Of a DNA stretch of 64,000 bases, positions 2,621 through 56,726 are shown piece after piece. How positions within the stretch are numbered: the stretch's first letter is position 1; every line of letters begins with the position of its first letter. The position numbers and the translations under genes are program-made. The DNA comes from Coptis chinensis (lineage: Eukaryota; Streptophyta; Magnoliopsida; Ranunculales; Ranunculaceae): positions 33,070,501 to 33,134,500 of the forward strand of contig CM027377.1 of the NCBI GenBank assembly GCA_015680905.1, read 5' to 3'. Below the pieces are notes generated by a model, which ran no database searches, had not been told where the DNA came from, and worked only from the letters and a program-made list of their open reading frames with translations.

Positions 2621-4009
2621 ATGAGTTTTGTGCTAAACCCACATCCTCATTTTTTCCATGCTTTCCTCTAAAACTTATCCCAATCCACCATATTTTCCAC
2701 AACCATTCACTTTTCCACACTTATTCACTAGGACACCCTCTCGCTCAAAGATGAAACATAAGGTGCATGCTCGGTTATGTTATAGGTCTATCCGACTTAA
2801 ACTTTCATTCCACTAGGTCTGCGTCGTAGGAAATCTTGGTGCTTGATTGTGTTTGGATATGTTTTCTCATGATATTTATTTATGGAACGATCCACAACTA
2901 TTTTCGGTTGTTGATATATGATAAACTGCATATTCATACATATGTTTAGATAAGTCTAGGGAATCGACTTTAAAAGACCCAAGTTTTAAATCAATACCAA
3001 CGTTAAAGAGTCTAGGGCAAACAAAATTTTCAAACTTAAAAAGAGTTTTCCAATTTTGTTTAGGGGTGGCGATTTTGGTATTCATTTCAAATCATGTTGC
3101 CACCCTAAGCTTTGTAATGTTTACTCCAAGAGAGTTAAATACCCGGTTTAATTGTGCTTCATATTATCGTTATCATCTTTACAATATTTCTCTTCATTAC
3201 AGTCGCCAATTTTTTGCCACGTTTCTATGGTAAATTCTTTCCTTATCTCTTTACACTTTGAGGACAAAGCGTTCGATTGTTTGGGGGGGATAGAAACATT
3301 TGCAAAAATTAGACACTTTTAGGATGTAAATTACGCACTTTTATTTATAAAATGTTAAAAATTATAAAAATTAGTTAGTTACATAATTTAATTGTACTAT
3401 TGAATTGTTTCATGAACCCCTTCTCCCAAATTGTTTGGGGGTGGTATAGAAACACGATGTAAATGTTAAGCACATATTAGGTTGTATATTACGATTATTT
3501 GTCTTAAAAATAATAAAAATAAAAATAAAAAGTTTATGCTATACACTTAGGAATATTGGTATTGTTTCTTTCTCTATGCTTTTAATAATCTAGAAGTCTC
3601 CGTGTAGCTTTTGCATTAGAATAGTTTTTAGAAACTTAGGTTAATATGTAGGTAATAATCTTTGCATCTATCTATAAATATATTACATGAGTATCTATGA
3701 TTGTTTGACAATAAGTTTAAAATCTAGGCTAGAGTACTTATTCTACAAATCCTGTGAGAATATAGCCTAAAGCCTTATATGAGTGAAACATTTGAGAAAT
3801 GACACAAGGGAGAAGTATATTCGAATAGAGAAATCACACGCCCACTTGCTTGACCACTATACCATGTCCTAAGAGAGAATTTAGGCCCTTTTGGATCGAT
3901 ATAGCTAGAAATTCCGACCTAAGTATATTTTTTCGCTAGTAAGCCCCATCGAGCCTTTCATTAGCCCTTTCATAAACCACAAATCCTTTACCCTGTTACA
4001 AAAAAATAA

Positions 4010-4047
<38 letters not shown>

Positions 4048-5004
4048 ACCTACCCAATTTAGATAAGTCTGAGAATAGAATAAGGAAGAAAGAAGAAGAG
4101 AAAAACCTGTGTAAACAAAAGTTAGTTAATTGCTTTAAAAAAATAAAGAAAAGAAGTTTCCATCCAAAGAAAAGAAAAATAAAAATAGAAATAAAATAAA
4201 AACTCCAAAAAAAATAGAATAAAAAAGAGTCAAAAGCCAAAGAAAAAAAATATATATGGCTAAGGATGGAAACAAAGTGTAGAAGCAAAAGTAAATAACA
4301 AGGTTTTCTCTAGTTACATAATATGAAGACTCTATTATCTCAGACTTGTCCCTTTTGAATATCCATTTCCTTCCTTCTTAAACCATCTCCTAATCCCCGC
4401 AACACCTAATAAAGACCTCTAGCTTAATTAGGAATAGGTTTGTGGGATAGTAAGTGGCAGATGTGTTTGATCAACTTCGGCTTCCTTGTGTGTCATTGAG
4501 ATTGTAAGGTAAAGTATGCCCACCGCACAATTTGGAGTAGCAAAACTTGAGTGGAAAAATCGAGTGATTTTTGTCTTGACTTTATGTGAGAACCTACTTA
4601 AGGACGCTTATTCGAAGTTTAAAACGAACCTCGCTAGACATTTCATGGTATTACTCATTGTATATATGTTTATTTTAGATGATTGATTATTATGCATATA
4701 TTAGCTTAGGTTTCGACATGATTATTCTGTATTCATTGCTAGTGAGATGTATAGATAATTGAGACATAAATAAGGAAACAATAGTTGTATTTCTTAGTCG
4801 TTGTAGTATAGATGAAGTTTGTGAGTACCTTCACTGGAAAACTCTCACGAGGCTATAACTCGTCCACTAGGGAATTCCTAGTGGTTAAAGGCCTTGTTGC
4901 ATATGGTCAATGCAATCGCACTCAAATAAAACGAGAGTAGTTAGAACTCCATTTTTGGTCACTTATTCTAATTTCTCATCTTTGCTTGAGGACAAGCAAA
5001 ATGC
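2621..5004 (+). other. long 3' non-coding region of element A
   Basis: There is no open frame with family resemblance here. The region contains repeated PPT-like purine runs of the form TTTGGGGG (near 3280-3292, 3430-3440 and finally 5005-5017), a long A-run near 4007-4044, and AT-rich filler. From about 3425 to 4313 it is the inverted counterpart of 6619-7500. A perfect 8-bp hairpin (CCACTAGG, 5-base loop) lies at 4864-4884. A 15-base match to the 5' end of plant tRNA-Asp lies at 4797-4811. The segment around 2945-3000 is homologous to element B's non-coding DNA at 9600-9660 (minus strand). Confidence 0.7.
3425..4313 (+). repeat. left arm of a ~0.9 kb inverted repeat (element A 3' region)
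   Basis: Read in reverse complement, this stretch matches 6619-7500. Shared landmarks include the CTAGAGAAAACCTTG edge at ~4300-4315, the TTTGTTTCCATCCTTAG segment at ~4258-4275, the GGGTAAAGGA/TCCTTTACCC run, and the GAATATAGCC run at ~3760. Several indels separate the arms, so they come from diverged copies and are not a fresh palindrome. Confidence 0.85.
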
Positions 5005-5019
5005 TGTTTGGGGGTGGTT
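5005..5019 (+). promoter_or_regulatory. polypurine tract (plus-strand primer) of element A
   Basis: A TTTGGGGGTGGTT run lies immediately before the LTR's first bases (TGATAAGAGCC). In Ty3/gypsy elements this RNase H-resistant purine run primes plus-strand DNA synthesis and so defines the left edge of the 3' LTR. Similar runs occur further upstream in the same element. Confidence 0.75.
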
Positions 5020-6541
5020 TGATAAGAGCCCAAAACTGTAGTTTTAACCCTGTAACAGTCATACTATTAGACCAATTATATGAGTAATAATTAAGAGTTA
5101 ACACTGATTACGTGTTTTTATGCATTTTAGGTTTCAAAGTCTATTATGTGCAGAAATGTGCCACTTTAGCGAGATAAAGGAGCAAAAGTTGGTTACTAAG
5201 GAGTTCCGTGATTAAAGGCCAAGATTCAAGAAGATAAAGCCTTTCTAAAGCCCGGTCAAAAGCTGAAAAGTCGGCCTTGGGGCAAAAAAAAGACACAAGT
5301 CGCCAGAACTTCCTCGGAACTTCCGAAGATCTTTAGACTCAGACCTCGGAATGGGGCCTACCTTATGTCAAAACGACCGGCTCGGAAAGAGCTTTCCAAT
5401 GGTCCAAGCCTTGACCCAATCAGAGGAGAAGAAGTAGATGAAAAGTCTGTTGAAGCCAACTGCAGCTGAATAGGCCTTTTTGGACTGAAAGAATTGGGTT
5501 TTGGGCCCGATTTTCCAGCCCAAAACATGGCTCCAAGCCCATGCACGATTTTTGGATCTGAAAGTATAAAAACAAAAGCTTAGCTCTTTGTTAATGGTAG
5601 ATAGTTAGACCTAGATTAAAGATTAGATTAGTAGCCTCCATTAATTAATTCTAGATCTAGTTTTCCTTAGATTTAATTAGTTTAATTTAATTAGTTTCAT
5701 ATCTTGTTTTTATTTAATTCCTTGAATGATTGTTCGTCATTTAAATAGAGAAATAAAATAGTTATTATTATTCAATTTCGATTTTTGTCATTTGCATTTA
5801 TAGATCTAGTTTAAATTCTTGTTCTTATTTTATTCTTAATTAATTAATTAGATTTCAATTCTTGTTTAATTTAGATTAGTAAAGTTAGAATTTTGATATG
5901 ATGTGTAGTTATAATTCAATGGGAAATGATGGGTTGATGATTCGAGGCTAAAACCTCCATTAGAGGGGTTGATGAAGCCTTGATGAAAACTTAGTGGTAT
6001 AATGTAGAAGCATTGTAGAATCTATTCCACTCTAGAAGGTCGTGATTCGCCATGAGAATGGGTGGACGACCTCACATGCTAGTTAGTATTTGGTAGAAAT
6101 GCCATGAACACTAGGGATTAGAACTCGAAATTCTTGCCGTAAGAACGTAAGAATCGAGATATAAGAACCTATGCTAGGTTATCAAGTTGGATTCGAGGTG
6201 GATTCAATTCCCCTATAATCCTTTATCTAGATTCAAAAACAATCATATTTCCATAGCATTCGTAGTTTAAATTCAAATAATCAATTTCATATTACATCGT
6301 AGTATAATTCCCCCTCGTAAAACTCTCATTAGACTTAAGACCGATTAATTAGATTAGAAAACATTCCATGCTAAAGAACTAGGAGTGGAACGAATTTGTT
6401 ACTCCACGCTATTTCGATAGAATTGAGAGTAGAAACTTTGATAAATATAAACATATAGACACGTAAGATAGTTGTAGTTTACTTACGTTTTAAGTTTCAT
6501 CGTTCATTTCATAGGTAGACTATCTATTTTTACGTTTATCA
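5020..6541 (+). repeat. LTR of element A (about 1.52 kb)
   Basis: It begins TGATAAGAGCCC and ends TTATCA, giving a short terminal inverted repeat (TGATAA...TTATCA). It is closely similar over its length to the minus-strand LTR at 12756-14232. A TATAAAA box at 5565-5571 probably marks the promoter at the U3/R border. The LTR has a polypurine tract on its left and a primer-binding site two bases to its right (TGG at 6544), so it is flanked by internal DNA on both sides. A 3' LTR of a single element would not be. Confidence 0.85.
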
Positions 6542-6543
6542 AA

Positions 6544-6617
6544 TGGCACCACTGTCGGGGATCGAACTCGGGTCACCCACATGACAGGCGGGAATACTCA
6601 CCACTATTATCACTAAC
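6544..6617 (-). other. full-length antisense tRNA-Asp-like sequence in the primer-binding position
   Basis: The 74 bases match, with some substitutions, the reverse complement of an entire plant tRNA-Asp (anticodon GTC) including CCA. The 3' acceptor end is at 6544 and the tRNA 5' end near 6617. On the minus strand one can follow the 5' acceptor strand, a D-arm (TGGTGAGTA), an anticodon stem-loop with CCTGTCA, and a T-loop (GTTCGATCC). The T-stem and acceptor stem carry mismatches and the 3' CCA is encoded in the DNA, so this is not a working tRNA gene. A normal plant PBS covers only about 12-18 bases of the tRNA 3' end, as in element B at 12741-12753. Confidence 0.8.
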
Positions 6618-6618
6618 T

Positions 6619-7500
6619 TAGAGAAAACCTTGTTATTTTCTTTTGCTTCTATACTTTGTTTCCATCCTTAGCCATATTTTTCTTTTTCTTTTCTTTGCCT
6701 TTTGACTCCCTTTTATTCTATTTTTGGAGTTTTTATTTATTTCTATTTTTCTTTTTTTTTTCCTTGGATGGAAACTTATTTTCTTTTTCTGAAGCAACTA
6801 ACTAATTTTTGTTTACACAGGTTTTTCTCTTCTTCTTTCTTCACTCATTCTATTCTCAGACTTATTCTAGATTGGGTAAGTTGAATTTTTTATTTTGTTT
6901 TGTTTTTGTAACAGGGTAAAGGAATTGTGGTTTATGGAAGGCTAAAGAAAGGCTCGAGGGGCTTACTAGCGGAAAATAATTCATAGGTTTGAATTTCGGC
7001 TATATCAATCCAAAGAGGGCCTAAATTCTCGCTTAGGATATGGCATAGTGATCAAGCAAGTGGACGTGTGATTTCTCTATCCGGATTTTACTTCTCCCTT
7101 TGTGTCATTTCTCAAATGTTTATTTCATATAAGGCTTTAGGCTATATTCTCACAGGATTTGTAGAATAAGTACTCTAGCCTAGATTTGAGAAACTTATCA
7201 CAACAATCATGAATACTCATGTAATATATTTATAGATAGATGCAAAGATTATTACCTACATATTAACCTAAGTTTCTAACAATTATTCGATGCAAAAGCT
7301 ACGGGAGACTTCTAGATTGTTAAGAGCATAGAGAAAGAAAACAATACCAATATTCCTAAGTGTATAGCATAAACTTATTTATTTATATTTTTGAAATTTT
7401 TAACTTGAAAACAAATTCATATTATATATATATATATATCTATATCTATATCCTAACAGATGTTACACGTGTTTCTATGCCCCCAACAAGAAGCATGCTT
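6619..7500 (-). repeat. right arm of the inverted repeat (element B 3' region)
   Basis: This is the reverse complement of 3425-4313 with substitutions and indels. It starts directly after the tRNA-like sequence (AGAGAAAACCTTG). It contains an AT dinucleotide run near 7422-7450 and, at 7480-7492, a GGGGGCATAGAAACACG motif (minus strand) matching the purine runs of element A. No coding content is visible. Confidence 0.85.
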
Positions 7501-8525
7501 TGTCCTCAAAGCATTTAAATAAAGAGGGTAGAAAAATACCATGGAAACGCATGAAATTCTGGAACATCTGCAAAACAAGGTTAGAACATACTAATATAGG
7601 AAATAAAAAGACTGACGCAACTCTATAAGAGTTCCACCCATTATGGGGTTAACAGAATTAAATTGTTTGGGACATAAGCAGACACTAACTGAAACTAAAA
7701 ACTTACCTCCACTCCAACGTTTACTCGTCATCCTCCTCTTCTATAAAGAAGTGAGGTTCCTTCGCATCCTACCATGCCATTATAATTTGCCAAGCTTGCC
7801 GCCATTTATCATCTACGGATGCTAACCTGTTAAGCGCTACTTGGTCGGATGGGGTGTAAGGTGCAACCTGATGAGGTTGTATCCTCCACCCTTGCCAAGT
7901 CATTGCACGAAAAGATCGAATAATAGAATTGGTGGTCTCACAATGTCGACCCCAACCCAGTCCGTGAAACGGGCACAAAAAACAGGGAAGAAACATAGCA
8001 TAATACGGCAAACTAATATAGGCATAAGAAGATACTTATGCCTCATGCTATGGGCTCATGCTAAACTAGACATTAAGGTCTTAGGAAGGTCATATAGCAG
8101 GCGTTCCTCAGCTAAAGCAAGGAAAACATTGCAAGTGGCATCATTCGCAGAAGAAAAATGTCACTCCCCTAATATGTTTAGCATGATAAAGAACATTACC
8201 GTATCACATTAAGGGACAAGCTACCAAGGGCTACGTTATATGTCCTTTGGTCCTCTACACGGAAAATGCCGGACCCATAATTCTCATGTAAAAGCTCATA
8301 GTTGTAGGCAGAGAAATTATCAACTATGTAGCCCCATGAGTCTTGAATCTTAGCAGGCATAGGAATCTCAATAACAAAAGCCAACAGGGGACTTAGTTAT
8401 CTCCATTGTTTAATCATCAATGTTGATGGAGAACACTTGTTCTCCATCCATCCGATAAAAAGAATGTACAATGGTTATAAAAATACGAGGCAAGTCTGGG
8501 GAGTAAAGTTCATCAGAACTTACCA
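7501..8525 (-). other. unassigned part of element B
   Basis: Short minus-strand frames exist. One at 8196-8384 reads IPMPAKIQDSWGYIVDNFSA, another around 7769-8011 contains MTWQGWRIQPHQVAPYTPSD. They look like decayed coding sequence: amino acid composition is protein-like and the frames follow each other. I recognise no family. They might be remnants of an extra ORF carried by the element or of a captured host fragment. Confidence 0.35.
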
Positions 8526-9014
8526 TTAAAGATTGCCATCCTGTTGTATGATTACTTCGCGAAACCAAGCACCATTACTTTGGAACAAGTCTTCGAAAGA
8601 CTGTTCCGATATGATACGCGGGGATGTCATCACAAAACTACTTTCTGGAACTACTGCAACTATCCTGGAACAACCCACGCAAAAAATCGGAAATTTCGCG
8701 TCTACTGAGTTCTGGGCGCAGGTGCGCTCCACTTGGGTGCAGGTGCGCTCGGGTGTTTTTGGATTTATAGTGTTTTGGGCCTGAGTCGCTTCGAACTTGG
8801 CTTGAGCAGTGCTCGGGGTAGAATTTCGACAGCGATTAGAGGCGCAGCGCTCCATCAGCAAGCGCAGTCTTTGTTGTAGTGCCGGTCGCGAAGGAAAATT
8901 AAGCGAAAATTGGGAGTGAAAAATGAGGGATGGATGTGAGAGATATGTGTGTGTGGAGAATGAATGAAGTTTATATAGGGTTAGGTTTCCAAAAACGAAT
9001 CGGAAAATTTCCAA
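8526..9014 (-). pseudogene. unidentified 162-codon open frame in element B, no ATG start
   Basis: The frame is open but begins at a TTG; the first internal ATG is near its middle. It contains two direct copies of a GGG(C/T)GCAGGTGCGCTC unit (8714-8729 and 8735-8750) that translate into repeated E-R-T-C blocks. Similar units recur at 11832-11847 and 11902-11917. No known domain is visible. It may be non-coding DNA of element B that happens to be open. Confidence 0.3.
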
Positions 9015-9713
9015 AACGTTTTAAGGCAATTGCCGGAAACAAAAATTTCCAAAACCGGAAACGGAAACAACCCATATTCTTGATTCTATAACAACCCTAA
9101 TATCTTTTATACTGGATTTAGACTAGTAACTTCTAAACTCTCTTAGATTTCATCCTACCACCATATCTAGTCATAGGTATCCCAATTACGGCAATATTCT
9201 CAACCTTCACTCCAAAACAAACTCTAAAATGGAGAATCTTCTACAAATCATGATAGAATAAATAATACCACCCCCAAACAATTCGGGAAGGTGGGATTAA
9301 CAATAAAATCCATGCACAATTTGAAAAGAACCACATTATATTAAAATTCAAATTCAAACAACATTTAACTACCAAATTCAAAGTTAACTACGAAATTTAA
9401 CAACGTAACATCCTATCTACTAAAAATAATAAAAAACAACATCAAAACAACAAACAAGAAGAAATCTAGCTACTCTTCAAGGAGCGAGGTGGTGGTAAGA
9501 ATAGGAATTTGAGTGATCAAGAATGGAAAAACCAAACACTTTATTCCCCAAACAAATTTTTGAAAACAGGTTTGTAAAATTTGTTTTAAAACGGGGTCTT
9601 TTAAAGTCGATTCCCGACTTAATGTGGGGTCATTTTACGTTCCGATTCCCTAGACCGTGTGCACCCCCCAAACAAGCATGAAACTAGGGTGGCACAAAGT
9701 GGATGATGCGTGG
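9015..9713 (-). other. non-coding spacer of element B with PPT-like motifs
   Basis: No gene is visible. On the minus strand there are TTGTTTGGGGGTGGT near 9285-9270 and CTTGTTTGGGGGGTGC near 9680-9665. Both resemble the polypurine tract of element A. A segment near 9600-9655 matches element A at 2945-2985 (CTAGGGAATCGACTTTAAAAG region). Confidence 0.6.
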
Positions 9714-11003
9714 TCAACTATAAACAAATAGTCGGAAGAGTTGGGGGTCTAGCCATAAAAACATGATACTAAATGCACCTCCAAACGGAATAATGTTGTA
9801 TAATTGGAAGCAAACATGTAAGCGAAAGCATGAAAACTTATGCATCCTATCAAAGAACATATGCAAACCATCATGTTGTAATTGTTTTAAATAGTTGGAA
9901 TGACCAAAAAGATGAATTAGCGATACTTTAGGTGAGAAGGGAATGAAGTGTGGATCCTGATGATGTCTTTCATGAAGCTCAGATGAGGAAAAATAAGACA
10001 AACTAGGTTTCTCACTACACTCGATCAGAGCTTGTCTCTCAATTACCGGAATGGTGTACTCATGGGATTGTGTGTTAGGCAAACACTCTTCACTGTGAGG
10101 GTTGAAAAAATTATAGATGGTCTCTGAGGCAATTGGCTCAAGGGCAAAATTGAGGTTCCTTTTAAATGGTGGGTAAATGGATGGCTTAGTTGTGGTAGAT
10201 GGTTGGATTATAGGAGGTGGTAACTCAGGTGGATGGTGGCTGGTTGGTGGTTCATCGGGTGGTGGATCCTCACATGCTCTTAAGAACTCTACATCTGGCT
10301 TAGCTGAATCCACAAGGTTGTGGTTCGTGGCTTTATCTTTAAGATTTTCCTCTATTTCTTTCCTTGTTATTTCCTCAGCTGCCAAACTGAATTGAGATTC
10401 ACATTACTCTAAAGATGTAACTTCCTCGTTTTCTTGCACATTAACTTGTTCATGCCTTAGATTTGAATTGTTAATCTCCATGTCATCACCCTCTTCCTCT
10501 AAAACACTACAAGTATCCTCAATGGCCTCATTCGAATGTGTCGAGACATCATCCAGCCGAGTGCGGTTAGCAAACTCAAAGGCCTGGACATGCTCAATAG
10601 GAGGGTCCATATTACGAGAATGTTAATAGTTATCAAATTCTTCCTTCGTCACACCTTTATAAATATCTTCTAAAGTGTCATCATTATATTCATCGTCAGG
10701 TGGATCAGTGGGAAGTTCCTCGGAGACATCGCTCAAGTTTGAGTGGTCATCCGAAACTAGTCCTAAAGAGTCATCTACAAGAATTTCCTCATCCAGGTGG
10801 GGTGTGGAGTTAATATCATGGTTAATGGGAGGGTCTTCGGAAGGTAATGGTTCATGAAATGTAGGGTAGGTGTGAACTAGGTTGACTGGGTTAGTTATGG
10901 GAATAGTGTCGATCTCTGGCATGGTAGAAATGTCTGGCGTAGGTGAACCTAGTATCTTTAGGTTTCGGTTTATTTCCTGAAGTATTATTTTGTTTTGGGC
11001 CAT
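9714..11003 (-). pseudogene. acidic/proline-rich ORF series of element B
   Basis: Three consecutive minus-strand frames (11003-10623 starting with a real ATG, MAQNKIILQEINRNLKILG; 10610-10404; 10385-9714) look like one protein broken by stops. It begins with a short helix, continues with a long Asp/Glu-rich region, then a proline-rich block (PPPDEPPTSHHPPELPPP) and the RNLNFALEPIASE segment shared with element A. No enzyme motif is present. In position it corresponds to the region after gag in element A. The acidic composition suggests a structural or nucleic-acid-regulating role, but that is conjecture. Confidence 0.6.
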
Positions 11004-11020
11004 TATTTCATCGAATGTTG

Positions 11021-11500
11021 TTAGCTGAGGGGAAGCTTGGTGGTGTGGGTTTGGTTGGTATGGTGTTTGATAGTCATAGTTATTGGCATTTGAGTGACTC
11101 TGGTTGATGTCATACTGTGATGGGTTAGGTTGAGGCTGAATGGCTGGTTGATTGTTATTGGTGGAATTACATGAATAGTTTGGATGACTAGAAAACTCTT
11201 GATTGTATGAGTCACTATAAAAATTTGAAAATTGAGGCTCATAATTATTATTATATCCTATAGTAGGCTCAGACTCTTGATATGATGGGCATTGAGAAGC
11301 CCAATGGTCAGGACTACCACAACATGAACATGGTGAAGGGCATTGAGAAGCCTAATGATCAGGACTACCACAATATGAACATGGTGAAGGGTTCCCATAA
11401 TAATTACAAGATTGCTCTTGATATGATGGGCATTGAGAAGCCCAATGGTCAGGACTACCACAGCATGAACATGGTGAAGGGTTTGCATAATTATCATATG
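11021..11500 (-). pseudogene. gag nucleocapsid with three tandem CCHC zinc knuckles (element B)
   Basis: In the correct minus-strand frame there are three near-identical copies of CSCCGSPDHWASQC, each an exact CX2CX4HX4C knuckle, at about 11484-11433, 11395-11344 and 11340-11289. The middle copy has CSYC, and its Trp codon is a TAG stop. They are followed by a Gln/Asn/Pro-rich tail (YEPQFSNFYSD) leading into MAQNK at 11003. Knuckles of this type bind the element's RNA during packaging. The DNA triplication is visible on both strands as a ~55-base repeat, with a longer unit spacing between copies one and two. Confidence 0.75.
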
Positions 11501-12740
11501 ATTGTTGGTCTACATATTGATATGTCATATTGGTTTTTCAAATATATTATAGGGCAACTAATATGCAACCACAACTCTAAGCATACACTTTTAGATAGGC
11601 GTGTGGTATTTCATTTTAAGAAAACAAACCTGATTATACTAGAATTAAAACTCCTCTGACAGAAGAAACAAGGAGTGAAAGAAGGAGTACCTGAATGCCT
11701 CCTTGGTTCGCTTACGAATAGCGTCTTGTATACACGTTCTCAGTGTTTGTATGATGTTAGAAACACTGAATGACTTGAAGAAATGAAAATTTGGAACAAA
11801 CCTGAGGAAATTGGGTAAATTCAGCAGTTTAGGGCGCAGTCGCGCTCTGTTTAGAAGGCAGGTCTTTCGAGTTCCAAGCGTTTGAAGCAAGTCGCTTATT
11901 TGGGAGCAGGTGCGCTCGTGGCTTGGCTCTAATTCCAGTAAGGTTAACGTGCTCCAAAAAATTTGAAATATTTACAGTAGTTTTCTAAGATGTATATCAA
12001 GTAGTCTGTAAAATTTTGATCAATCGGAGCTATGAAAGTCCCTCTACTGCCCTTCAAACTTTGTGAAACAGTTTTCGGACACAATACAAACAACCGAATA
12101 GTTAACTCATCAAAACAAAGCCAAAAATCGCCAATATTTTATAGGAGACTCCTGACAGATCCTACTTGTTCCTATAAAACTTTTAGAGCAATTGGAGTTC
12201 TACAAACTCTCCTTATGAGCTGGTGTTCCAGAAATTAAGTGTTTGCAAAACTGCAGAGACACACTAGAAACACTCCACTATTTAGGAGGTCAAAACAATT
12301 CAAAAACTCGTCAAATTTTTACTGCAAGCTCCTGACGTAGGATAGATACTCCTGTAAAAATTATAGAATTTTTAGAACTGCCTAAGTAACCTTACTCGAC
12401 AGTTTTTCCAAGAACACATGATTTGAAAACTGAAATGCAGCACTGTAAAGATTGTATTTGTTCACAAGGTAAAACAATTAGGAAATTTCTGACAAAATTA
12501 CAGTAAATCAATAACACATTAAGGATTACACCTGTAATTGTTTAGAATTTTTAGAAATTTACAAATACCTTTACTGCAGTGTTTTCCTCTGTGAATCCGC
12601 AGCCCCTATGCCTAAAACAGTGAACAGTTCCGAAAATTCAAGAAATAGGAATGAAAATTTAAAAGGGTGGGTGGGTAGAGAATGGGGGATTGCCCCTTGG
12701 ATTCAATCAATTGAATTCTTGTCTTGAACGAGATTAAGAT
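11501..12740 (-). other. 5' leader and gag start region of element B
   Basis: Between the primer-binding site and the zinc knuckles no gag capsid core can be recognised. Only short frames occur. The sequence holds two more copies of the GGG-GCAGG-TGCGCTC type unit (11832-11847, 11902-11917) and many AT-rich tracts. Absence of the capsid block suggests a deletion, or that this family packages with a helper's capsid. Confidence 0.5.
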
Positions 12741-12753
12741 GGCAGCGACGCCA
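12741..12753 (-). promoter_or_regulatory. primer-binding site of element B (tRNA-Asp type)
   Basis: The minus strand reads TGGCGTCGCTGCC two bases after the LTR end. This matches the 3' end of plant tRNA-Asp (TGGCGCCGTTGCC in complement) at 11 of 13 positions. The similarity stops there, in contrast with the 74-base match at 6544-6617. Confidence 0.75.
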
Positions 12754-12755
12754 TT

Positions 12756-14232
12756 TGATAACTCGTAAAAACTCAATTAGATTACTCTAACCTTATTCTT
12801 ACGGTATCAATATTTCATTTCCTACTCTCACATATAGATTCATGCAATATATATAGAGTCAGGATTCGTTCCACTCTTAACTCTCAAGACTTAAACAAAT
12901 TCAATTGAACAAACACAAAGAACAATGGTGAGAGTAATGTGTTATGTGAAATTTCTATTCTACGATTATACTACGGATTCAATTTATACTAACAAGATAC
13001 GATAATTCAACTACAGAAATACTACGTTGATTCTATGATAAGGAATTAGGGGGGATTTGATTCCACCTTAACTCAACTTAACTTGCTAACGACGAATCGT
13101 CGTAATCCGAATTGAACTGCTTCGCAGAACAATTGGTTCTTCCTAATCCCTAATTACACATGGCATTTCTACCAATTATAACTAGCATGTGAACGATTAA
13201 ACCCATTCTCATGGTGACTAATCATTTTTAGAGTGGAAAGGAATTACGACTATTCTACACTAACACAAATCAAGCTTTCATCAAGGTTTCGCAACCCCCT
13301 CTAATGGAGGTTTAGCCGAGAATCATTCCGCAATCATTTCCATATAAATCTAAACTAAACATAATATCAAGATTCCAACTTTACTAATTTAACAAATAAT
13401 AATTGAAATCTAATTAATAATTAAGAAATGATATCAACAAGAATTTAAACTAGATCTATAAATGTAATGACAAAAAACGAATTGAATAATAATAAACTAT
13501 TGTATTAATCTAATCAAATGAATAACAATAATGTAATACTAAAATTGAACAAGAATTAACAAATGAATTAATGTAAAACTAAATCTAGATCTAAATTATT
13601 CTAATCTAACCCTAGCTACCATTACAAGGAACTAGTTTTCTAAATAAAACTAGATAACTTAAGAACTAAGCTTTTCTTTGTTTTTATATGTTTCAGATCC
13701 AAAATCGTGCATGGGCTTGGAGCCCTGTTTTGGGCCAGAGAATCAGGCCCAAAACCCAATTCTTTCCGTCCAAAAAGGCCTCTTCAGCTGGAGTTGGCTT
13801 TGACAAACTTTTCGTCCACTTTTACTCCTCTGATTGGGTCAAGGCTTAGACCATTGGAAAGCTCTTTCCGAGCCAGTCGTTTTGACGTAAGGTAGGCTCA
13901 ATTCCGAGGTCTGAGTCCAAAGATATGGTCTTCGGAAGTTCTGCTAACTTTGTGCACTGTTTGTGCCCGCATGGACTTTGACTTTTCATCTTTTGACCGG
14001 GCTTTATAGAGGCTTTGTCTTCTTGAAAATTGGCCTTTAATCACAGAACTCCTTAGCAACCGACCTTTGCTCCTTTATCTCGCTAAAGTGGCACATTTAT
14101 GCACATAATGGACTTTGAAGCCTGAAATGCATAAAAACACGTAATCAGTATTAACACTTACTTATTATTCACATAATTGGTCTAAAAGTACAATTGTTAA
14201 GGGGTTAAAACTACAGTTTTGGGCTCTTATCA
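12756..14232 (-). repeat. 5' LTR of element B (about 1.48 kb)
   Basis: On the minus strand it begins TGATAAGAGCCC at 14232 and ends TTATCA at 12756. It aligns through its length with the plus-strand LTR at 5020-6541. Its outer edge abuts Tat-element coding DNA (RNase H end, from 14235), so it was inserted into element C. The candidate target-site duplication on this side is CTGAT (14233-14237). Confidence 0.85.
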
Positions 14233-14830
14233 CTGATTCTATCACATACTTATCCGTGGAAAGTCAAGTCGTCGCTGTCACGATAACACTGAATTAACTA
14301 ATTATGCTGTCAAATGATTCCAATGAGCTTGGCACTGATAATGTCTCGGTATCTACCGACAACGATCATGCAGCTACCGATGCTCTAGAATTCCTGATGA
14401 CCAAAAACTCTATCATAGCAGCATAAGTCTCAGTTATATTCTTCATTATTTGGGCAGAACGAACGATTTACTAGGCCTCAAAGAAATTCATTTATGACTA
14501 TGTAAAACACAACTCACGGGGGCAAAGTCTCGCTTACATAGCAATGACCCAATGGTATTGGTGGCCACACATGCCAAAGGATGTTAAGCATTTGTCCGAG
14601 AAGTGTATGCCTTGTCAAAAACATAATATGTGATATAGGTCAAACTTCCCGCGATGAAGGGTCATTCAATCCATAAACCTTGGTCATTTGCAAAATGGGG
14701 CCTTGACATTATTGGTTTATTTCCGACAGCCCCAACAATGTTCGTTTCTTGCTCATCGTAACAAATTATTTTATTAAGTGAGCGGACAAAATAGACAAGT
14801 TGAACGAAAAACTGGACAACAATTTGTTAG
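14233..14830 (+). pseudogene. RNase H end and integrase fragment of element C
   Basis: It starts inside the RNase H tail (DSITYLS, compare DSLAYLS in D). Around 14515-14630 it reads SLAYIAMTQWYWWPHMPKDVKHLSEKCMPCQ, the zinc-binding HHCC end of a gypsy integrase. This is followed by FAKWGLDIIG, the first catalytic Asp. The frame then decays and the rest of the catalytic core is gone. A coding remnant only. Confidence 0.75.
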
Positions 14831-14939
14831 TCTGTTTCCAGTTCAATAGTTTCTTTTCCATTATTATCTTTACACTTTTCAAGATTTGGTGATCAATAAG
14901 GTATTTCTTTCACTTCAGTTCTAATGGTATAATTTGGTT
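14831..14939 (+). other. short transition between element C integrase remnant and tandem repeats
   Basis: No feature is recognisable except homology to the corresponding stretch before the repeats in D (25420-25545) and E (39010-39140), including TTCACTTCAGTTCTAATGG. This is the start of the element's 3' untranslated region. Confidence 0.5.
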
Positions 14940-16440
14940 TCTATCGCAACATTATTATCGCTACAAAAAAATTTGACAAAGTTACCACGTTTAGCTTCGT
15001 CAGTCTAAGTTTGAACGCTTTTACGCTCGCTTAGTACGTTATTATCGCTACAAAAAAATCTGACAAAGTTACCACATTTAGCTTTGTCAGTCTAAGTTTG
15101 AACGCTTTTACGCTCGCTTAGTACGTTATTATCACTACGACAAAATCTGACGAAGTTACCATGTTTAGCTTTGTCAGTCTAAGTTTAAACGCTTTTACGC
15201 TCACTTCGTACGTTACTATCGCTACGACAAAATTTGACAAAGTTACCACATTTAGCTTCGTCAGTCTAAGTTTGAAAACATTTACGCTCGCTTAGTATGG
15301 TTCTATCGCTACAACAAAATCTGACGAAGTTCCCACATTTAGCTTCGTTAGTCTAAGTTTGAACGCTTCTACGCTCGCTTAGTTCGTTTCTATCGCTACG
15401 ACAAAATCTGATGAAGTTACCACGTTTAGTTTCGTCAGTCTAAGTTTGAACGCTTTTACGCTCGCTTAGTTCGTTCCTATTGCTACGACAAAATCTGACG
15501 AAGTTACCATGTTTAGTTTTGTAAGTCTAAGTTTGAATATTTTTTTTTCTTAGCGAATGCGTTATTATCGCTATTTTACAAAAAATCGGCGGTTACCACG
15601 TTTAGTTTAGGGGTACAAAAGTTTGAACGCTTTTACGCCGCAATTTCGTTACTATCGCTACGACAAAATCTGACGAAATTACCACGTTTAGCATCATCAG
15701 TCTAAGTTTGAACGTTTTTAGCTCGCTTAGTTCATTACTATCGCTACGACAAAATCTGGCAAAGTTACCACATTTAGCTTCGTCAGTCTAAGTTTGAACG
15801 CTTTTACACTCGCTTAGTACGTTACTATTGCTACTACAAAATCTGGCGAAGTTACCATGTTTAGCTTCATCAGTCTAAGTTTGAATGCTTTTACGCTCGC
15901 TTAATACGTTACTATCGCTATGACAAAATCTGACGAAGTTACCACGTTTAGCTTCGTCAGTCTAAGTTTGAACGTTTTTACGCTCGCTTAATACGTTCCT
16001 ATCGCTATGACAAAATCTGACGAAGTTACCACGTTTAGCTTCGTTAGTCTAAGTTTGAACACTTTTACGCTCGCTTAGTTTGTTACTATCGCTACGTTAC
16101 AATCTAACAAAATTACCACGTTTAGCTTTGTCAGTTTCAGTTTTAACGTTTTTACGCTCACTTAGTTCATTATTATCGATACGACAAAATCTGACGAAGT
16201 TACCATGTTTAGCTTCGTCAGTTTAAGTTTGAAAGTTTTTACGCTCGCTTAGTTCGTTATTATCGCTACGACAAAATCTGGCGAAGTTACCATGTTTAGC
16301 TTCGTCAATTTAAGTTTGAAAGTTTTTATGCTCGCTTAGTTCATTACTATCGCTACGACACAATCTGACGAAATTACCACGCTTAGCTTCGTCAGTTTAA
16401 GTTTAAACGTTACGCTCGCTTAGTCTAATTTTGCCAAGTT
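14940..16440 (+). repeat. tandem repeat array of element C, ~87-base monomer, about 17 copies
   Basis: The monomer runs TATCGCTACGACAAAATCTG, then GACGAAGTTACCACGTTTAG, then CTTCGTCAGTCTAAGTTTGA, then ACGCTTTTACGCTCGCTTAG. Copies follow head to tail with point changes; one near 15535-15650 is badly degraded. Each carries an inverted pair CTGACGAAG...CTTCGTCAG able to form a hairpin, and a second pair CTAAG...CTTAG. Tandem repeats in 3' untranslated regions are known in the Tat/Ogre/Retand group and are thought to seed satellites. Confidence 0.9.
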
Positions 16441-19172
16441 ACGTTAGCATTGGGGGCGTTTTTCTCTACATGGGGGCGTCTCATTCTATTCCATTTCTAC
16501 TACGTAAATCAACGACACTGTCAGTTTTCTGCAGGTATGTTCTCTGACACAACAACAATATTCGATAGCAAACACATACTTTATTTTTATTTTCATCAAA
16601 AGGAATTTTAGCTCTATGGTATTACATTCACACAATCACATAATCATTGGTTTGGGATAATCCAATGGTTCCTTACCAGTTTTCAATTATACAACTCAAA
16701 GTCTCTGTCAATTGTCAATTGTCTTACGGTCGCTCGATTAAATCTTCATTTTCTTCTTCGAAATCTACATTCGTTTCGCTTAGCGCTTTCGGTTAAATAT
16801 TTTCCGATAGTTTCATTATTTTTTCTATGGCATTAAGCTGATTTTTTTTAGCGAATCTTTCCGAGCGATTTGAAATTTTTTAACAGCTTCATTATTTCTT
16901 CTAAAGCATTGAGCCGATCTTTCTTGTCGAAACTTCTGTCAGCTTCTTTAATTCTTCTATGGCATTACTTGTCATCTTTCTGCACGAAACTTTTCTCCGT
17001 CGACTCTTTGTGAATATATTTTGCTTGTAAAACTGTCGTTTCTCCGTGCGGCGAAAATTCGCATTACGTCAAATTTCTAAGCGAATTGCAAATTATCTTC
17101 ATCTTCTTTATTTTTTCCAAGGCATTGAGATCATGCAGAACGAAACTTTTCTTCACAGCTTTTTCATGGATTTCTTTCACCCGTAATACCACTGTTTCAA
17201 CCTGCAGCAGAGAGATATCTTGTTTTTCGTCAATCTTTCATATAACCAAACTTTTAAAGATGACTGATAACATATACTAACATACCTGTTTCATGTTGTC
17301 GAAAATCATTCACACCGCTTTGTCATATTCTCTGAAGTTTTTCGTGTTTTAGTAACGCTTAAAGTATATTTCGAACTCTGTTGTGTATGGCACGTTTTCT
17401 TTTTCCTTTGCTTGTCAGATAGTCGACTCCAGATCTACCCCCAACATCCTGTTCCTTTGTATTTTCATTGCATTCTTCGTGTTTCGCGGCTCGGACATAT
17501 TGGGCATTGCTTGTTGCTTATATCTTCTTCCATCGAATTTCCCAACCTGTATCATCCAAGTTGATTTCTCATTTGGATATATTAGTCACTCTTTCCAGAT
17601 TCTAAACGCGACATGTCATATGACACCAAGAAACAACATATAAAACACAACAATATAAGTTTATTTTTAGCCAAGTACATGTTTTTGTACGTCCATTGCT
17701 GGCAACAGTTAGCCTTGGTTTACTAAGTCGTATGCCACCAATCCCACCGCACTCGCTCTTTGCCTTGGATTCCCATAGTTTAATAAAATTAAATCACCCA
17801 TATTACTCCCCTCCACTCTTCCCACACAGTATATTTTTTTCACCTTTGCTATGATCTCAGGCCACTAAAAACGTTAAGGATTTTACAGAGAGGATCCCTT
17901 CTGGCTGTGGGTCAATTAGGACACTCCATGCCGATGCATTACTGCTAGCTGAAGTCAATGGCTCATTGCTTTTGATAGACGACGGGTTTTCACTTTTGAG
18001 GTTAACTGTCCTTGCCCCTCTCTGGTTGGTTGAATGTGTTCACAAACTTCTTGGCTTCTAGTCAGAGACTGACGATGAATCCATTACCTAAAAGACCCAT
18101 CTTGTAAGTATCGCGGTTTTTCTTGTATCACACAAGAAGACAGAATTCTTCCTTATATACACAATCATCAGTCTAGTTCGCAACAAGGGACGAAAGCAAG
18201 GAAGCTCGCCTATGTAGAAGAAATAAAAGTCAAGCTGCACACAATCCAAAATCAAAAGAGAGAAGGCAGTCACGGAACACTTTCTTAATGAAAAAATAAT
18301 AATATGCACCAATTAGTTTTTCACCCCACTACTTTATAAAACATTCATGTTTTTATTTTTTATTTTTCTTACGATTTGTTTGGTTTCATCATTCTTCCCC
18401 AGGCCAATGATTGATTACTTGTTCACACCACACACATCCTCATTAAGAAACGAATAATAATACTAACATTTTCCTTTTCGTTGTCTATACATAAACATCT
18501 CCACCGATTCGAAACTTGATTTCCAATTTCTCAGGGCTTGTTGCCTTGCCACGCCATATCACTAACCTTTGTATATCTTTCTTTTTCCGTCTACTGTTTT
18601 GCATATGGAGATTAGCCAGCACTTATATAATATTTCTTAGATCTAGTTTTACATTGCTGGTTGGATTCTTATCTAATCCGAATTCTTATCTAATTCGAAT
18701 TCTTATCTAATTCGAAGTTCGCATCCAGTTTTAGTCACTAAAGTCTTCACCTTCGAATCCAATTCGTATTTAACTTCATTTTCTTCCTATTATTACTAAA
18801 CTGCCTCTATATTTAATTTTAACTGTCTAATCCTAATATAAATCTTCCACTCGCATGAGTAGTCAAAATCAATTTTATTATTATTACGTAATTATTTCGG
18901 TACAATTTTTGCCATAATTTTCTTTTGCAATTTTTTTTGTGTCAGCCATTTCAATTCTCACTTCAGTCATCTTTCATTTAACTCCATTGCATCCCATATA
19001 AATTAGTTTGACATTATTTCATTCACAATAATTTACGACTTTTTCCCTACAGTCCATTTTCCTATCGTTTACATCACACGACACTTTGTTATGCACTCTA
19101 CTCACTCTTTTTTTATTCCATTTTTTTCTCGATTTTTCTTATCTTCTTTGCCATATGAACTTTGTTCGCATG
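16441..19172 (+). other. 3' region of element C, with antisense-type extra sequence
   Basis: From 16441 to ~17300 the sequence matches the antisense extra-ORF region of D (26340-27250) and E (39935-40900). From 17311 it is the left end of the tandem-duplicated unit and recurs at 30916. A minus-strand stretch at 17830-18310 has gene-like composition (NLKSENPSSIKSNEPLTSA), but I can place it in no family. Three consecutive copies of TTCTTATCTAATTCGAA-type units lie at 18665-18718. From about 18760 to 19170 it matches the pre-LTR segment of D and E. Confidence 0.55.
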
Positions 19173-54601: not shown

Positions 54602-55538
54602 ATTCTAGCAGAGCTAGAGAGTGAGACTTGAAGATTTTATCACAGCAGGTGTCATTTGTAAGAATCTAAGCTTTCTTTCTCCGAGGGTGTTAACTATGTT
54701 CAATGCCTTGATTAAACTTATTCCAGAAATGGCCCATCGCTAATAAATTTGGTCACACATTATTTATAGTTTAGTAATTGAAATGAAGCAATCTTTTCAT
54801 TCAACCTTTCATGTTTATGGTAGTTGGATCATCTACATTTTACCCAACAAATAAAACTCCTAGAACAAATTTTCATTCTGAGTTCTGGAAACTATGTAAT
54901 ATAGAGATCCAAATTCTGTAGAATGAAATAAAGCATCAGCGAAAGCGTAAATTTTGCATCTGCTCTGCTCTGTAGAAATCAGCTGATTATTTGAAAATGT
55001 GTTAGAAAAGACATGATGTGGCATTTGGACGTTTGAGAATTGATATAAAACAAGCTCTAAATCTCTAATAATAATTAGATATGAGTATATGATGACAACA
55101 AAACTGCGAAAGAAAGAAGGGAGATACAAAAGTTTGACTGGTGGAACAAAGATTCGGTGCGTAGTTGTTCCAGTTTTTCCAAACTTTTCGGCAGCATTCA
55201 CGCTTATATTAAGGGCAACGAGTACTCAGGTGCAACTGCGCAGGCCAATATGTACGGTACTTAAAATTTTGAAATTTGTGCATGACGTGTTAAAGATAAG
55301 TTTAGATTTTTAATTCGGATTTGGTAAGAACTTAGAATTCTATTTCATCATGGAGTGGGAATCAGATTCAGATTCAGATTCGGATAAGAAAAAGAAACGT
55401 CCCGATTAAAAGTAGCATATGTGAACAATGAAAAAGCTCTTTACCTGCTGCACAATTGTTTCCTTTTTTTAGCGTACTGGTTCTTCTATCTCTGTTTAAG
55501 AAAAGGGCAATTGTATTGGTTGGTTGAAGTTTTATTTG
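54602..55538 (+). other. intergenic region and presumed promoter/5' leader of the TRP1-like gene
   Basis: No gene is seen. A short (CAGATT)n-like repeat lies at 55362-55383. The last ~100 bases before the start codon are T/C-rich (55455-55500). I cannot point to a TATA box with confidence. Confidence 0.4.
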
Positions 55539-56726
55539 ATGGCAACATTTTCTTCTTCCCTATGCTGCAGTCCCAAGCCTTTGCAAAATAGTTTTGGGCA
55601 AAATCGTGCCGGGGTTCAAAACAGCTTCTGTACATCGCAATCTAGTGCTTATCCGGTTAAGCCAATAACACTAACAGCTAAGGCCACCAGTTCGCCTCTT
55701 GTTCCTGGAACTTCTTTCAATCAGTTAGTTGAGTCGCTTATAAGTCGGGTGGATTTATCAGAAGAAGAGGCAGAAGCGTCTCTTGATTTTTTACTGAATG
55801 AAGCAGACGATGCTTTGATTAGTGCTTTTCTTGTTCTTTTAAGAGCCAAAGGAGAAACGTTTGAAGAAATTGTAGGATTGGCTCATGCGATGATAAAAAA
55901 GTGTAGGAAGGTTGAAGGACTTGGTGATGTCGTTGATATTGTTGGAACAGGTGGTGATGGTGCAAACACTATCAACATTTCAACTGGTGCTTCTATTCTT
56001 GCTGCAGCTGCTGGTGCCAAAGTTGCTAAACAAGGAAACCGCTCTAGTTCTTCGGCATGTGGAAGTGCTGATGTTTTGATAGCATTAGGAGTTGCCGTAG
56101 ATTTGGATCCTGAGGGGGTAAAAAGGTGTGTGGACAAAGCAGGCATTGGATTTATGATGGCCCCCAAGTACCATCAAGCCATGAAAATTGTTGGTCCTGT
56201 GAGAAAAAAACTAAAGGTGAAGACTGTGTTCAATATCTTGGGTCCTATGTTGAATCCTGCACGGGCACCTTATGCAGTGGTTGGCGTGTACAAGGAAGAG
56301 TTAGTTGAGAAAATGGCTAATGCACTACAAAGATTTGGTGTGAAAAGAGTTTTAGTTGTTCACTCTGAGGGTTTGGATGAAATGAGTCCCCTAGGTCCTG
56401 GACTAGTCCTTGATGTTACTCCTCAGAGAATTGAGAGATTCCCCTTTGATCCACTGGAGTTTGGCATTCCTCGCTGTACTCTAGGAAGCTTGCGAGGGGG
56501 AGGTCCAGAGTTCAATGCTGAGGTACTGATGCGTGTTCTCTCCGGTGAGAAAGGACCCATAGCAGATTCATTTGTTCTAAATGCAGCAGCGGCTCTCTTA
56601 GTCTGTGGGCGTGTGAGCAGTCTAACTGAAGGAGTAGACCTCGCCCGAGAAACACATTTATCTGGAAAAGCTCTTACGACACTAGAATCTTGGATTAGTA
56701 TATCAAACAGGAGTTTTACCAAATAA
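55539..56726 (+). CDS. TRP1: anthranilate phosphoribosyltransferase, chloroplastic
   Basis: The enzyme transfers phosphoribose from PRPP to anthranilate, the second step of tryptophan synthesis from chorismate, in the plastid stroma. The frame opens at ATG 55539 ([14 protein letters not shown]) for 395 codons; the upstream in-frame TTG is not a likely start. Residues ~1-50 are Ser/Ala/Lys-rich and acid-poor, a typical transit peptide. From ~60 a complete TrpD fold follows: helical N-domain, [17 protein letters not shown] (PRPP loop, GTGGD at ~136), [20 protein letters not shown] (~164), [20 protein letters not shown] with [13 protein letters not shown] (~206-240) and GLDEMSP (~278). Family members normally have KHGNR; here it is KQGNR. 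No intron interrupts it, although the Arabidopsis orthologue (PAT1/TRP1) has introns as far as I recall. It is either a functional gene or a retrocopy. Confidence 0.93.

Follow-up and report, generated by a model that had tools for sequence, protein, structure and literature searches.

The window analysed here is a stretch of 64,000 nucleotides from the genome of Coptis chinensis (contig CM027377.1, positions 33,070,501 to 33,134,500), and its left part holds two LTR retrotransposons, A and B, in opposite orientations. Element A (plus strand) ends within the window. Its polypurine tract (GTTTGGGGGTGGT, 5006..5018) lies directly before the 3' LTR, which extends from 5020 to its ordinary end TTATCA at 6541 and is 94.9% identical to A's 5' LTR, found ~0.9 kb to the left of the window (C1:33068090-33069581). 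The spacer AA (6542..6543) joins this LTR end to a block antisense to tRNA-Asp nt 75-12 (6544..6607), an extended U5 of A whose first 13 bases are the short primer-binding site (PBS) of the family. The block is followed by TATCA (6608..6612), which repeats the LTR end and forms the 3' terminus of A, and then by the target-site duplication CTAAC (6613..6617), whose partner is GTAAC at C1:33068085-33068089 (4/5 bases equal).

Element B (minus strand) is split by A. In a BLAST comparison its internal part (6618..12740) gave pieces that mostly follow the order of A on the opposite strand, with the 3' region at low coordinates, then the ORFs at 9717-11351 and the leader. Beyond these lie the short PBS (TGGCGTCGCTGCC, 12741..12753), which is followed by the leader ATCTTAATC with no more tRNA, the 5' LTR (12756..14232, 95.7% identical to B's 3' LTR at C1:33064637-33066116) and the target-site duplication CTGAT (14233..14237), of which the partner CTGAG (4/5 bases equal) lies left of B's 3' LTR. 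To the left of the window (L073) we found B's 3' LTR, further B 3' region and then A's 5' LTR. Because the remainder of B lies on A's other side and 5-bp duplications are present, A is nested in B by normal insertion; both elements are ordinary insertions, with the two halves of each duplication differing at one base. The presence of B on both sides of A, together with the target duplications, excludes a single tail-to-tail recombinant cDNA and equally the entry of a cDNA end into B by end joining. A 1.25-kb stretch of B's 3' region (C1:33066252-33067504, in L073) had no match among the pieces compared.

Both elements have LTR pairs, a PBS, a polypurine tract by each 3' LTR and 5-bp duplications, as expected of LTR retrotransposons. 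The PBS is complementary to the 3' end of tRNA-Asp, which agrees with the Ty3/gypsy OTA/Athila group, defined in this respect by tRNA-Asp or another non-Met tRNA. The B ORFs at 9717-11351 are gag-like by a CCHC motif recognised by eye; no Pfam family was found in these two ORFs, nor in any of the four ORFs of A and B at E 0.01, and one B ORF had no homologue at E 0.001. Extra PPT-like motifs occur in the 3' regions of A and B (3256-3287, 3433-3445 and 9279-9267), and A compared with B shows what looks like a deletion between two of these motifs. Elsewhere in the window, two tandem 13.6-kb units (17311-44510, 92% alike) carry arrays of 87-base repeats, and their ORFs encode RNase H, integrase and gag domains. 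B inserted next to a partial and more diverged match to these units at ~14483-17374. A plant anthranilate phosphoribosyltransferase is encoded by the ORF at 55500-56723; leaving aside the window's own protein, Tetracentron, Macleaya and Aquilegia are among its best matches.

The block at 6544-6607 aligned in antisense and without gaps to nt 75-12 of a reference tRNA-Asp (56/64 identical, scored against a reference that may differ from the host's own tRNA). Identity was 14/18 within the first 18 bases and 42/46 past them. The score beyond the PBS (72) was matched by 0/10,000 dinucleotide shuffles (shuffle maximum 30), and BLAST of tRNA-Asp against the window gave E = 2e-18, which together rule out chance similarity as the origin of the block. 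An earlier note on this DNA had claimed an LTR end TTATCA (6536-6541), a 2-base spacer AA and then tRNA-Asp complement, all of which are present, and the comparison with shuffled sequence beyond ~20 bases that it proposed came out far in favour of real similarity. The locus thus combines an LTR end, a spacer, the CCA complement and more than 18 bases of tRNA complement, the arrangement expected of primer-tRNA read-through. The note had followed the antisense tRNA over all ~74 nt, and this part did not stand: nt 75-12 can be traced, but nt 1-11 fitted 6605-6622 no better than shuffled letters (3192/5000 shuffles equal or better), and the last of the supposed 74 bases are the LTR-end repeat at 6608-6612 and the target-site duplication at 6613-6617.

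Six of the eight mismatches in the block are G>A or C>T changes at CG or CCG sites, a pattern suggestive of methylated-DNA decay. The other two, at nt 20 and nt 67, are near-universal in sister copies (62/62 and 91/93) and therefore probably mirror the host tRNA. The copy in the window, which is decayed and does not include the tRNA 5' end, scored only 15.1 bits with the general Rfam tRNA model, below the cut-off of 29, and no tRNA was called in the window by ARAGORN or Rfam, each at its own cut-off. A search for long antisense tRNA-Asp in viral_contigs and genome_contigs gave 0 matches. Two LTR-PBS pattern matches in viral_contigs (L001, L002) were dropped as chance, no tRNA following the match.

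The genome assembly of 935.6 Mb was searched for similar LTR ends. A first similarity search within this genome yielded 30 loci, 24 with an LTR end and a tRNA block. Pattern searches at <=3 mismatches then gave 187 tRNA-Asp read-through LTR ends (90+97; reversed-pattern control 0) and 10,549 ordinary LTR-PBS-leader sites (5237+5312; control 0), a ratio of about 1.7% between sets that overlap slightly, some ordinary sites being the second PBS of read-through elements such as A. Further LTRs of the family with long tRNA complement, which the earlier note had suggested looking for, are therefore present in number, and its proposal that the primer is copied past the usual stop before a template switch has many distinct examples in the genome, although the whole tRNA was not copied at this locus. 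We read 100 listed ends of the 187; 59 of these fitted the pattern exactly and 41 at one mismatch. After the merging of two pairs 98 events remained, among which parentage was traced for A's two LTRs and the two merged pairs only. End-point counts use the pattern-picked loci alone, leaving out the similarity-picked loci, which favour long tRNA matches.

As a control, we searched for the initiator-Met PBS word TGGTATCAGAGC, which had 3,594 exact occurrences (reversed control 24). The long tRNA-Met pattern matched nine times, once with the TGG of the CCA complement and eight times without it; seven of these eight were exact from the fourth base on, like tRNA genes, which lack CCA. The single match keeping TGG (C6:73471854-73471885) is a possible lone read-through in another family. 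Read-through was enriched at tRNA-Asp over initiator-Met sites with an odds ratio of about 64 (Fisher p 2e-22), a rough figure, because the tRNA-Asp pattern extends to nt 51 and the tRNA-Met pattern to nt 44, and the denominators were counted differently. This suggests that LTR elements of this genome do not share read-through in general, in a comparison where an effect of tRNA-Asp and an effect of the family are not separated.

The end points of copying were strongly clustered on the tRNA. Under a flat model that ignores chance matches of ~1 base at each end point, nt 10-14 held 42 of the 98 listed events (9.8 expected, p 3e-17) and nt 1 held 12 (2.0 expected, p 7e-7); nt 20-35 held nine against 31.4 expected. 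The remaining end points of the listed events fell at nt 36-50 (15), nt 15-19 (9) and nt 2-9 (10), with one at nt 51, the shortest product that the pattern can catch, as it is blind to copying halted before that position. The peak itself lay at nt 11-12 (30/98 listed events), nt 10 accounting for 4/98, and 77/98 carried 54-75 bases of tRNA complement. In the accessible text of a review, the normal stop on the primer is m1A58, an in-vitro transcribed primer tRNA is copied in full, plus-strand synthesis goes beyond A58 in A58-methyltransferase mutant cells, and tRNA-Asp is not among the m1A58 primer tRNAs named (PMC13191261). Misreading at A58 was seen in 0/93 copies, at sites that had been chosen at <=1 mismatch in a 33-base pattern that includes A58, and this is compatible with an unmethylated A58.

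If the polymerase passed an unmethylated A58 and halted just ahead of m1A9, ends at nt 10 would be expected; the observed peak falls 1-2 bases short of this, so trimming, a pause at G10 or a hybrid with a 15-mer of the family may account for the peak at nt 11-12. The 15-mer, which lies in A's 3' region (4797..4811, plus strand) ~200 bases before the polypurine tract, is identical to tRNA-Asp nt 1-15. Such a match is expected 0.0023 times in the window by chance, and chance was rejected as its origin, as it occurs in other family copies (10 places in the DNA examined, eight exact). In one event (L016 = L075) a full-length tRNA is followed by antisense 3' region, with a switch through this 15-base identity. 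A barrier at nt 10-14 formed by a hybrid of tRNA nt 1-15 with the complementary 15-mer in the family minus strand would fit these occurrences, and the edge of the hybrid at nt 15 is near the peak. We nevertheless regard it as unlikely: the peak at nt 11-12 lies inside the hybrid and off its edge, and 12 of the 98 listed events were copied as far as nt 1.

A second possibility is that the tRNA sequence came from a nuclear tRNA-Asp gene through DNA repair, with a broken PBS end invading the gene. The absence of misreading at A58, albeit at pre-selected sites, is what a DNA template would give, as would unmethylated RNA. A gene template explains neither the nt 10-14 cluster nor that at nt 1 (together 54/98 listed events), however, and it gives no reason for the rarity of read-through at initiator-Met sites, so that we hold this origin to be improbable.

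To describe what follows the tRNA, we took as the sequel the best match starting within the first 40 bases, comparing up to 170 bases. Among the 98 listed events, sense sequels came from the LTR (27), the leader (23) or other internal sequence (6), antisense sequels from the LTR (13), other internal sequence (6) or the leader (1), and 22 had no family match. Sense sequels thus outnumbered antisense ones by 56 to 20 (p 4e-5), and in 50 of the 98 the tRNA was followed by the element's own LTR or leader in sense. The PBS and leader reappeared within 170 bases in 27 listed events, at distances of 2 to 108, which we read as a tail that slipped back into U5 and made a second attempt. The antisense and no-match sequels (20 + 22) may be target DNA, namely the flank of an inherited extended 3' LTR as in A, and so give no individual proof of a switch.

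Hairpin-like junctions were found in three of the 98 listed events (L071, L103 and L105), and their form would fit hairpins self-primed by the tail. L103 has a full tRNA followed by GCCA-TT and an inverted LTR. In L105, 28 bases of antisense tRNA precede a sense tRNA-Asp that is almost complete and keeps its 3' CA; TT and an inverted LTR come next, which makes an inverted junction around a whole primer tRNA. The search for inverted LTR ends, which begins past the junction and so overlooks L103, gave L071, L105, L043 (antisense leader, then inverted LTR) and, weakly, L089.

Element A carries the insert in both LTRs. Its 5' LTR (L004) reads TTATCA-AA-tRNA(64)-TATCA-AA-TGGCGCCGCTGCC-ATCTTAG, and its 3' LTR TTATCA-AA-tRNA(64)-TATCA, followed by the target duplication; tRNA and U5 have TAT in common at the switch point. 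Had the 3' LTR received its tRNA by fresh copying in the latest round, no TATCA would stand after the tRNA. As the same switch product stands in both LTRs, both the read-through and the template switch onto the end of U5 took place in an ancestor of A, and under the standard strand-transfer scheme the next round of copying would have turned the insert into part of U5.

These LTRs bear directly on the event that the earlier note had placed here, in which the polymerase copied the tRNA up to and beyond its 5' end and then took a sense RNA of the element itself as template, so that the inverted junction arose directly. An inverted 3' region does follow the tRNA block (3504-4316 against 7403-6614, 87%), and L016 = L075 shows a full tRNA followed by antisense 3' region. 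At this locus, however, copying ended at nt 12-14 with a switch to the element's own U5 (TATCA), the same tRNA-TATCA product is present in A's 5' LTR, and A is flanked by a 5-bp duplication (4/5) with B, including its 3' LTR, on the other side. The inverted 3' region belongs not to A but to B, the target of an ordinary insertion, and is no switch product; run-off at this locus is accordingly very improbable. That the block is a long PBS inherited by the family we consider hardly credible: it is common to both LTRs of A, and the note's counter-case of an inherited block followed by sense leader does hold inside A, but across the family the short PBS occurs at 10,549 sites against 187 read-through ends, whose lengths and sequels vary among the copies read.

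Taken together, we consider it probable that a tRNA-Asp-primed family over-copies its primer, undergoes aberrant transfer and, in A, has inherited the insert. During plus-strand strong-stop synthesis, the polymerase would fail to halt at tRNA nt 58 and continue to a second barrier around nt 9-11, or as far as the tRNA itself extends. A tail of such length would be unfit for a clean second strand transfer and would be extended wherever pairing is possible, most commonly on the minus strand of the element itself, within U5, the PBS or the leader, giving the sense outcome, sometimes on a sense template, giving the antisense outcome, and sometimes on itself, giving a hairpin. When the tail lands back in U5, the PBS would be copied again and the transfer would succeed, so that an insert comes to separate the LTR from the PBS and, one round later, is copied as part of U5. 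The descendant of such an event would be element A, inserted normally into B. From the tRNA copies, their end points and sequels, the inheritance in A's LTRs and the target duplications, we infer the order of the strand transfers, an under-methylated A58 and a modified nt 9 or 10 as the second barrier. The wider reading, that this genome is a natural record in which A58 is often unmethylated, a modified nt 9 or 10 is the real barrier and tRNA was repeatedly written into LTRs, is tentative, and we would put it slightly below an even chance.

The stop at primer nt 58 is a textbook step known chiefly from laboratory retroviruses, and the 98 listed integrated failures, all from one plant family, reveal where this step breaks down under natural conditions. 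Their junctions yield single-base predictions on the modification of plant tRNA-Asp, and failed second strand transfers would lead to LTRs with tRNA inside; if true, this is a direct route for tRNA sequence into mobile elements. We found no report of primer-tRNA read-through in an LTR retrotransposon in a search of literature titles, with subscription papers mostly outside its range. According to one hypothesis, tRNA-derived SINEs arose from primer tRNA and strong-stop DNA; it has tRNA joined via CCA to antisense U5, like the minus strand here.

The closest mechanistic parallel is HIV-1, where, in the accessible text of the review, tRNA-Lys3 with unmethylated A58 is likewise copied beyond nt 58 and the fully copied product is described as an inactive transfer template, which we liken to the present case (PMC13191261). 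Those results come from in-vitro and cell assays, whereas the products described here are integrated in a plant genome, involve tRNA-Asp and show a second stop at ~nt 10. Provirus-host junctions of HIV-1 in Mre11-deficient cells also carry tRNA-complement bases at the LTR end, as far as the accessible text goes 2, 4, 11 or 15 in number (PMC2797772); here, by contrast, the complement reaches 54-75 bases in most listed events (77/98), often followed by the element's own U5 or leader. Inherited tRNA sequence within the LTR, as in A, is also a feature of the short LTR retrotransposons named Helenus, whose tRNA part, in the portion of that work available, keeps its Pol III boxes and has no complementarity to the PBS (PMC10886601). 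Unlike Helenus, the insert described here runs antisense to the primer of the element itself and lies at the end of U5.
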